A stretch of 47,757 bases of DNA from a virus, in the IMG/VR virus record IMGVR_UViG_3300021962_000181, positions 1 through 47,757 of that record; one strand, written 5' to 3'. The position numbers and the translations under genes are program-made. The first letter of the stretch is position 1, and every line of letters starts with the position of its first letter. Positions 2,183-12,624 of this stretch are shown here, piece after piece. The notes beneath the pieces were generated by a model, which saw nothing but the letters and a program-made list of their open reading frames with translations, was not told the DNA's origin and did not search any database.

Positions 2183-2210
2183 TTGACAAAGTAAAAAAAC
2201 GTGGTAAACT
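2183..2210 (+). promoter_or_regulatory. Sigma70-like promoter, near-leaderless
   Basis: TTGACA (2183-2188) and TAAACT (2205-2210) are separated by 16 nt. The expected transcription start, about 7 nt after the -10 box, falls on or next to the ATG at 2217, so the mRNA would have essentially no 5' leader. Confidence 0.6.
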
Positions 2211-2457: not shown

Positions 2458-2531
2458 GCGGGAGTGATGTAACGGTAGCCTGGGGCTCTTCCAAAGCCCA
2501 CGAAAGGGTTCGATTCCCTTTTCCCGCTCCA
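2458..2531 (+). tRNA. tRNA-Gly (anticodon UCC)
   Basis: The gene folds as a canonical cloverleaf: acceptor GCGGGAG pairs with UUCCCGC (one G-U), the anticodon arm is GGGCU-CUUCCAA-AGCCC with anticodon UCC, and the T arm is AAGGG-UUCGAUU-CCCUU. The discriminator is U, as usual for tRNA-Gly, and CCA (2529-2531) is encoded. It reads GGA and GGN glycine codons. It is the first gene of a compact RNA cluster with a second tRNA-like gene and the tmRNA. Confidence 0.93.
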
Positions 2532-2543
2532 CTTTTAAATATT

Positions 2544-2642
2544 ATGGCAACTAAAGGAATGAGACGACAACACTTACGTAAAACCAAAAAAGGTTATTGC
2601 AATGTTAAAAGTTGTAGTGTAAAAAAGCGTAAGAAGAAGTAA
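2544..2642 (+). CDS. Very small Lys/Arg-rich protein
   Basis: This 32-residue ORF starts at the first ATG after the tRNA-Gly and encodes a strongly basic peptide (MATKGMRRQHLRKTKKGYCN, then a second Cys and a KKRKKK tail). It fits between two tRNA-like genes with 12 nt on the left and 6 nt on the right. Basic composition and two cysteines would suit nucleic-acid binding or a tiny zinc-binding protein, but only two cysteines are present and no family is recognised. A longer reading from upstream would run through the tRNA, so the ATG at 2544 is preferred. Confidence 0.55.
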   Translation: MATKGMRRQHLRKTKKGYCNVKSCSVKKRKKK

Positions 2643-2743: not shown

Positions 2744-3128
2744 GGGCGTGTTCAGGTTTCGATTTAAGGATGCGTTCATGCTAGGCACGTAGAGGATGAT
2801 AGTTGGCCTCTTTAAACGTCTATCAAAACATAACTGCTGAAGAAAACGTAGTTAGCTATGACTTCTCTTACGAGAACACCGTAGCACTTGCAGCCTAATT
2901 AAAGGTCGCACATTTGATCAATGATTGTTCGATAGTTGATTGAATGTTATTATCGGACTATAATTGGAATGATTGATTTGCTCATCCAATCTACCTACTT
3001 GTAAATCTTAAGAAACAAATTTTTGATGATTTAGATTTTGTTTCCTATCAAATACAAATCATACAAGCGTGTAGTCTGGTATGGATCACTTCTTAAAGAC
3101 GCGAGTTCGATTCTCGCCACGTCCACCA
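2744..3128 (+). ncRNA. ssrA: tmRNA (ssrA), one-piece
   Basis: This is a complete 385-nt transfer-messenger RNA, which would rescue stalled ribosomes and tag nascent chains for proteolysis. The acceptor GGGCGUG pairs with CACGUCC, including the G3-U70 wobble that marks alanine charging, followed by A and encoded CCA. The 3' T arm is GCGAG-UUCGAUU-CUCGC, and the 5' side has the conserved GGUUUCGA. Pseudoknot 1 contains the conserved UUGGCCUC inside a GAUAG/CUAUC stem. The tag ORF (resume codon GCU at 2836-2838, stop at 2896-2898) encodes AEENVVSYDFSYENTVALAA, ending in the protease-recognised ALAA. A bidirectional terminator follows. Alanine identity and a full tag indicate a functional RNA. 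Confidence 0.95.
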
Positions 3129-3136
3129 TTTTTATT

Positions 3137-3168
3137 AAAAGACCCAAGCATAAACTTGGGTCTTTTTT
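3137..3168. terminator. Bidirectional rho-independent terminator
   Basis: AAGACCCAAG pairs perfectly with CTTGGGTCTT around a CATAAA loop, with A-run on the left and T-run on the right. It ends the tmRNA on the plus strand and would also end the convergent minus-strand gene, whose stop codon lies in its T-run. Confidence 0.85.
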
Positions 3169-3386
3169 TATGGTTCGAAGTCAATGTAGCTGTCAAACAC
3201 AAGACAATGTTTGTTTGTAGGATCAATGTAACCTTCTTGTTCTAGGTATTTTATCATGTGTTCTCTACAATGATCGTCTTCATACAAATCACATTTTTCT
3301 GGGTGTCTTAAAACAACGAAGCGGTCATCCCATATGGTTATTTTGTGATTGTTGATTTCGATATCGTGAAAATTAACCGTGTCCAT
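3168..3386 (-). CDS. Small acidic protein of unknown function
   Basis: This 72-residue minus-strand protein (MDTVNFHDIEINNHKITIWD at its start) is acidic and rich in His, Asp and aromatic residues, with three cysteines, two of them as CDLYEDDHC. No signal peptide or membrane segment is seen, and no family is recognised. It is convergent with the tmRNA, shares its terminator, and is divergent from the gene at 3411 with only 24 nt between the two start codons. On its own strand a TATAAATA box ends 11 nt before the ATG, like a T4 late promoter. Composition and codon use fit a real gene. Confidence 0.6.
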   Translation of the reverse strand: MDTVNFHDIEINNHKITIWDDRFVVLRHPEKCDLYEDDHCREHMIKYLEQEGYIDPTNKHCLVFDSYIDFEP

Positions 3387-12144: not shown

Positions 12145-12624
12145 ATGAGTATTGTTAGATATAAAGTGCCTGCATTGCGTCCTACTGTTAAGGACGATTT
12201 CGTAACCCCATTCGATAAGTTATTCGATGAGGTTTTCACAAATACCTTCCCAGAACTTACTAAGGATTTTGGAGTTGGGTTTTTCGAAAAACAAAGTTAT
12301 CCCCGTGTAGATGTAATTGATTATTCTGATCGGGTTGAAATTGTTGCGGAAATTCCAGGCCTTGAAAAGGAGGAAGTTTCTGTTGATGTTGAGGAGAATT
12401 TACTGATTATCAGTGGACAAAAGTCCAAGACAATTAGTGAGGACGACAAGAAGACTTACATTCGTAAAGAATTGAAACACAGTAGCTTTAAACGTGCTTT
12501 TGTGTTGAGTGACCTATTTGATAAGGACAATCCGTCTGCTAAGTTTGAAAATGGACTTTTGACGGTCACTGTTAAGAAGGTTAAACCTACTCCACCAACA
12601 AGTAAGCGAGTAAAAATTGTGTAA
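12145..12624 (+). CDS. hsp20: Small heat-shock protein, Hsp20/alpha-crystallin family
   Basis: This is a 159-residue ATP-independent holdase chaperone that would keep unfolding proteins soluble in the cytoplasm. After a variable N-terminus, the alpha-crystallin domain (about 47-145) runs from YPRVDVIDYSDRVEIVAEIPG through EEVSVDVEENLLIISGQ to the conserved KFENGLLTVTVKK. A C-terminal VKIV gives the I/V-x-I/V anchor that links dimers into oligomers. Hsp20 is a regular gene of cyanophage-type T4-like viruses. It has its own sigma70-like promoter, a structured leader, a good SD (AAAGGA) and a terminator, so it is a single-gene unit, probably early. Confidence 0.94.
   Translation: MSIVRYKVPALRPTVKDDFVTPFDKLFDEVFTNTFPELTKDFGVGFFEKQSYPRVDVIDYSDRVEIVAEIPGLEKEEVSVDVEENLLIISGQKSKTISEDDKKTYIRKELKHSSFKRAFVLSDLFDKDNPSAKFENGLLTVTVKKVKPTPPTSKRVKIV

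Follow-up and report, generated by a model that had tools for sequence, protein, structure and literature searches.

The window analysed here is a 47,757-base IMG/VR virus record, a fragment of a phage genome that encodes, among others, a baseplate wedge protein and a tail fibre carrying an endosialidase-chaperone domain, as well as PhoH, a primase and an SbcCD-like protein. On its plus strand, positions 2744-3128 hold a complete one-piece tmRNA gene of 385 nt, the encoded CCA included, to which two independent methods, ARAGORN and the Rfam covariance model, assign identical bounds. The gene, its parts and its neighbours are the following:

2183..2210, plus strand: sigma-70-like promoter TTGACA-16-TAAACT, a candidate for the tmRNA unit by consensus match only
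2458..2531, plus strand: tRNA-Gly(TCC), upstream of the tmRNA and in the same orientation (ARAGORN; Rfam RF00005)
2544..2642, plus strand: very basic 32-aa ORF, MATKGMRRQHLRKTKKGYCNVKSCSVKKRKKK, between tRNA-Gly and the tRNA-like RNA, kept in L053, L054, L061 and L062
2648..2720, plus strand: tRNA-like RNA of 73 nt with CAU at the anticodon position (covariation, model search)
2744..3128, plus strand: tmRNA (ssrA) gene (ARAGORN; RF00023; covariation)
2744..2750, plus strand: 5' strand of the acceptor stem, which pairs with 3118-3124 (100% paired)
2791..2824, plus strand: pseudoknot 1 (AGAGG/CCTCT, GATAG/CTATC; covariation)
2836..2898, plus strand: tag ORF from resume codon GCT to stop codon TAA, encoding AEENVVSYDFSYENTVALAA (ARAGORN; translation; pN/pS over codons 6-17)
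2890..2909, plus strand: helix 5, whose loop contains the stop codon of the tag (covariation)
2911..2958, plus strand: pseudoknot 2 (covariation)
2962..3007, plus strand: pseudoknot 3 (covariation)
3012..3062, plus strand: pseudoknot 4 (covariation)
3101..3117, plus strand: T arm GCGAG TTCGATT CTCGC (Rfam; two-sided changes in 5/5 pairs, pairing 100%)
3137..3166, plus strand: intrinsic terminator directly after the tmRNA, 12 pairs and then a T run
3168..3386, minus strand: convergent 72-aa ORF, which follows the tmRNA in most relatives (downstream sequence of L053-L071; translation)

The locus is a genuine complete tmRNA gene, far beyond chance. A covariance-model search, proposed as a check in an earlier note on this DNA, gave a full-length match to RF00023 of 122.6 bits against a cut-off of 47 (E 1.5e-47), and the parts which that note had read from the letters, namely G3-U70, the T arm, pseudoknot 1 and the resume codon, were all located by ARAGORN or Rfam and in the sequence itself. 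The G3-U70 pair is formed by G2746 and U3122, and G-U is kept in 22 of the 22 alignment rows that have both letters. The 3' ACCA is intact and the CCA end is encoded (3125-3128). UUGGCCUC lies inside pseudoknot 1, and the tag frame has its alanine resume codon, its stop codon and a hydrophobic end. A two-piece (permuted) tmRNA was considered and ruled out, the match being collinear with positions 1-374 of the one-piece model. The gene also falls outside the TLD-only decoy class, as the tag ORF and all pseudoknots are present and co-vary.

The structure of this RNA is kept by selection, and compensatory changes maintain it in 23 distinct relatives. The tested structure consisted of the acceptor stem, helix 2, the four pseudoknots, helix 5 and the T arm; 14 of its 14 helices co-vary among the 23 distinct genes, and 58 of 95 pairs have changes on both sides. 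It was paired in 95.7% of cells, compared to 83.2% after shuffling and 39-45% after sliding, where the slid control favours the structure because it was partly derived from the same alignment, although it equals the published tmRNA architecture too. Two contigs (L095 and L098), in which a type A 5' end is joined to a type B 3' end and a full acceptor stem is impossible, were left out of this set as probable assembly chimeras.

Since a promoter-like site (2183-2210) and a terminator (3137-3166) enclose it, the tmRNA probably closes a short small-RNA unit; matches to such sigma-70-like promoters numbered 5, compared to 3.6 expected in shuffles. The 73-nt RNA at 2648-2720, which also lies upstream of the tmRNA in L056, L057, L058-L062, L064 and L067, was detected neither by ARAGORN nor by Rfam. 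It has an 8-bp anticodon stem, a 4-nt D loop, an additional base where the T stem joins the acceptor, and non-standard T loops (GGCAGCA, GTCGGCA, GGCGGCA or ATCGACA). In its cloverleaf, 10 of 24 pairs show changes on both sides among five distinct sequences, three of which have a C1xA72 mismatch, a feature also of bacterial initiator tRNA. This RNA may represent either a tRNA of very unusual form or a mimic of one. No Pfam match was obtained for the 32-aa basic ORF (2544-2642) or for the 72-aa ORF (3168-3386); the latter ends in SYIDFEP and the core of the neighbouring tag is SYDFSY, probably a coincidence. The window also encodes, on the plus strand, a cupin protein (1683-2042) and an HSP20 small heat-shock protein (12145-12624).

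The tag has 20 residues, and the tags of this clade are of the AEENVVSYDFSY type. In the 17 relatives recognised by ARAGORN it reads A[EK][ED]NV[VI]SYDFSY, followed by eight residues ending in AA. The tag is under selection as a peptide: pN/pS was 0.33 over codons 6-17, which are the tag codons fixed by no search pattern, in 22 distinct ORFs meeting the core-free pattern, and the other two frames contained stops in 21 and 22 of these 22 ORFs. In the same set, pN/pS was 0.22 for codons 6-11 versus 0.55 for codons 13-18, and residues A1, N4, V5, S7, Y8, F10, A17, A19 and A20 were invariant. The end A-[LVI]-A-A is conserved across relatives. In sister phages the core drifts to SYNFTS or SYDFVS, whereas AEDNV-SY-F and the terminal A-x-A-A are retained. 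The codons GAC TTC TCT (D, F, S) were invariant in 60 core-type tmRNAs, although the pattern left their third bases free, and this invariance suggests that the RNA itself may be constrained too; no pairing partner for these codons was found.

The same note had described the inner YDFSYEN part of the tag as unusual and the tag as about twice as long as that of E. coli. The doubled length was confirmed, and a tag of 20 residues is long; however, its length alone is not exceptional, because published tmRNA tags range from 8 to 35 residues (PMC3968760). Tags also vary among bacteria, with 710 unique tags in 1631 tmRNAs (PMC4131195). The description as unusual held for the sequence of the tag, for which two degenerate patterns gave 0 matches in 84,980 prokaryote species (one genome each, contigs of at least 3 kb). 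The first pattern, in which AGY and TCN serine codons were required, matches 59 viral contigs, and the second covered all codons of A[EK][ED]NV[VI]SY[DN]F.

Relatives of the phage were gathered by a baseplate-protein search, which gave 44 viral loci. By this protein, the nearest named phages are Microcystis phage Mel-JY01 (41%), Flavobacterium phage immuto (38%) and LR756508 (37%), the last an uncultured phage of 484 kb. Two further window proteins match Mel-JY01 and LR756508, one of them immuto too, and by these similarities the window phage is distantly related to all three. A homologous tmRNA was found above the Rfam cut-off in 19 of the 44 baseplate-gene contigs, in 18 of the 19 at full length, and the 20th record above the cut-off is LR756508. 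None was found above the cut-off in immuto or Mel-JY01, so not all members of the wider group have the gene. The tag-core pattern matched 59 viral contigs and the core-free pattern 87; about 88 viral contigs in all carry the same tmRNA, versus 0 prokaryote contigs with the tag, and this, with the phage genes in the window, marks the tmRNA as phage-encoded. These records yielded 70 complete tmRNA genes, among which 48 are distinct. An early tag pattern, in which an ENTV end was required, matched 0 viral contigs because this end is particular to the window. Nucleotide similarity to the tmRNA in phage and plasmid records consisted of short chance-like or TLD-end matches only. Judged from the records searched, the tag is confined to one environmental, uncultivated phage clade. 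MT835863, a human-gut record, was rejected as a carrier, as it has only a 27-base stretch of pseudoknot 1 and no tmRNA above the Rfam cut-off.

It is proposed that the gene encodes a functional phage tmRNA, which performs ordinary trans-translation with host factors and whose tagged chains undergo host Clp-type decay; we assign this reading a probability of about 0.7. Transcription of the short unit would stop at the terminator downstream of the RNA, whose 3' end would then be processed back to the encoded CCA; the host enzyme would load alanine onto it via G3-U70. Host SmpB and EF-Tu would bind it, and it would enter ribosomes stuck at the ends of broken mRNAs. After taking the tmRNA alanine, the ribosome would continue on the GCT resume codon, append the tag of 20 residues and terminate. 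For E. coli ssrA it is established that an A-A-type end leads to Clp-type proteolysis, and because the phage tag ends in A-[LVI]-A-A, the tagged chain is most likely passed to Clp-type proteases of the host. The phage could gain recycled ribosomes during mRNA degradation and perhaps amino acids. What the sequences show is the anatomy of the gene, selection on the RNA structure and on the tag peptide, the spread within one phage clade and the absence of the tag from sampled bacteria; charging, ribosome rescue, proteolysis and a benefit to the phage are inferred from these. A search of 26 related phage records, mainly fragments, detected the positive controls but neither SmpB nor SspB, so the phage is likely to rely on the SmpB of its host. 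Proposed roles of phage tmRNA include maintaining the hijacked translation machinery or recycling host proteins (PMC9004378); the reason why phages carry it is discussed in the open-licence literature, in which no test was found.

A further reading, of low probability, is that a degradation or sorting signal of its own has arisen in the clade through SY[DN]F; by means of another protease or adaptor, or of protection, the products of trans-translation during infection would be kept apart from those of the host. In a related and rather unlikely reading, the conserved SY[DN]F core would act beyond the AA end and give tagged chains a non-host fate, such as protection, use of a different adaptor, or decay at a higher or lower rate. 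It is in line with such a private signal that the core is more conserved than the degron-like end, as the regional pN/pS values indicate, that it is absent from the sampled prokaryotes, and that its three codons are invariant despite free third bases. However, these third bases fit an RNA-level constraint as much as a peptide one, bacterial tags vary anyway, and the phage records contain no SspB-like adaptor. Ordinary trans-translation with host Clp-type decay is preferred.

The next issue is the origin of the gene. The earlier note had taken a host ssrA of identical sequence as a sign of simple capture without change. Because no bacterial tag matched among the species searched, recent simple capture of a host ssrA is unlikely, with the qualification that the actual host may lie outside this sample. 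That the gene is simply a captured host ssrA, its function unchanged, is considered very unlikely: all tmRNAs share ancestry with bacterial ones and the tag end matches bacterial tags, but the tag occurs in 0 of the bacterial genomes searched and the phage lineage has diversified under selection, so any capture would be old. Still less probable is a decoy RNA that titrates host SmpB or blocks host trans-translation. TLD-only phage tmRNA has a precedent in mycobacteriophage DS6A (PMC4131195), and the distant relative LR756508 has a TLD-only RNA of 112 nt; a decoy, however, would not need the tag ORF, the resume codon and the four pseudoknots, which are kept by selection. The chance that the gene is the attachment-site remnant of an integrating element is negligible, for although ssrA is a common integration target (cases cited in PMC9004378), the entire gene is under selection, stands with tRNA genes and its own terminator, and is conserved across a large phage clade, and no integrase was recognised among the scanned window proteins.

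The earlier note had further linked the tmRNA to leaderless mRNAs, whose translation might require extra ribosome rescue. A Shine-Dalgarno-like sequence was present at 13% of 559 ORF starts of the relatives, and a TATTTAT/TATAAAT box, which resembles the T4 late promoter, was found at -9 to -16 in 63 of the 559 (11%), versus about 0.013 expected per start. In about a tenth of the long ORFs of the window and L006-L049, the box has a fixed place about -11 to -13 from the ATG. Together with the few Shine-Dalgarno sequences, the boxes look like late promoters that would give leaderless mRNAs. The premise of the link thus has some support, but nothing ties it to a need for rescue; this part is speculative, and leaderless starts do not by themselves imply more stalling.

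Phage tmRNAs as such are already known, occurring in 2.3% of phage genomes (402 of 18,146 genomes in one survey; PMC9004378), and what is new is the tag and its spread. Neither the tag family nor its clade-wide conservation was found in the open-licence papers searched. Mycobacteriophages Bxz1 and Wildcat, Bacillus phage G and huge phages likewise carry a full phage tmRNA (PMC4131195, PMC7162821), whereas that of the window has a different 20-residue tag, limited to one environmental clade. In huge phages SmpB has been reported in some cases beside the tmRNA (PMC7162821), in contrast to the relatives of the window, in which none was found. The tmRNAs of Melnitz, an OM43 methylophage, and of pelagimyophages likewise belong to aquatic phages, with a similar proposed benefit (PMC9004378), but they are permuted two-piece molecules and the one described here is one-piece. 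A tag conserved across many phages and absent from sampled bacteria is a clean handle: because of this absence, tagged peptides could come only from phage RNA, and tagging during infection would be directly measurable.

Part of the clade (L070, L082, L091, L103, L118, L124, L163 and others) has another tRNA-like domain. Its acceptor is GGGGATG/CATCTCC, the D loop has AG where others have GG, and the T loop is TGCGACT or GGCGGCT, without U55, where others have the TTCRAYT form. ARAGORN misses this domain, and Rfam gives L070 109.7 bits. Since the domain is joined to two or more different mRNA-like backgrounds (L118 versus L124), it seems to be subject to recombinational exchange. In the few events observed, the D-loop G and T55 are changed together, which would fit an altered tertiary contact. 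The replaced domain provides natural variants of phage tmRNA.

The related phage LR756508 likewise has a tmRNA with a long tag, which differs in its 36 residues and Gly resume codon (GVNNADYESAGFTAEDFAQMDGESLYHGSERKPAAV, by the author's reading; ARAGORN proposed another frame). Long tags are also found in bacterial tmRNAs, for example in Mycoplasma/Mesoplasma and Chlamydia. These resemble the tag of the window in their length of about 20 residues or more, within the published range of 8-35 (PMC3968760), but its sequence is unrelated. Record LR756508.1 contains both a full tmRNA (L050, 92434-92880) and a TLD-only RNA with G3-U70 (L052, 414804-414915). ARAGORN probably starts some tags too late in contigs found by the pseudoknot 1 pattern, of which L170, L174, L193, L177, L188-L190, L192, L194, L178 and L191 have long helix-like tags, such as ANNIVDMAPSLDEADAILAKFGWAEEAAVAA with 31 residues.
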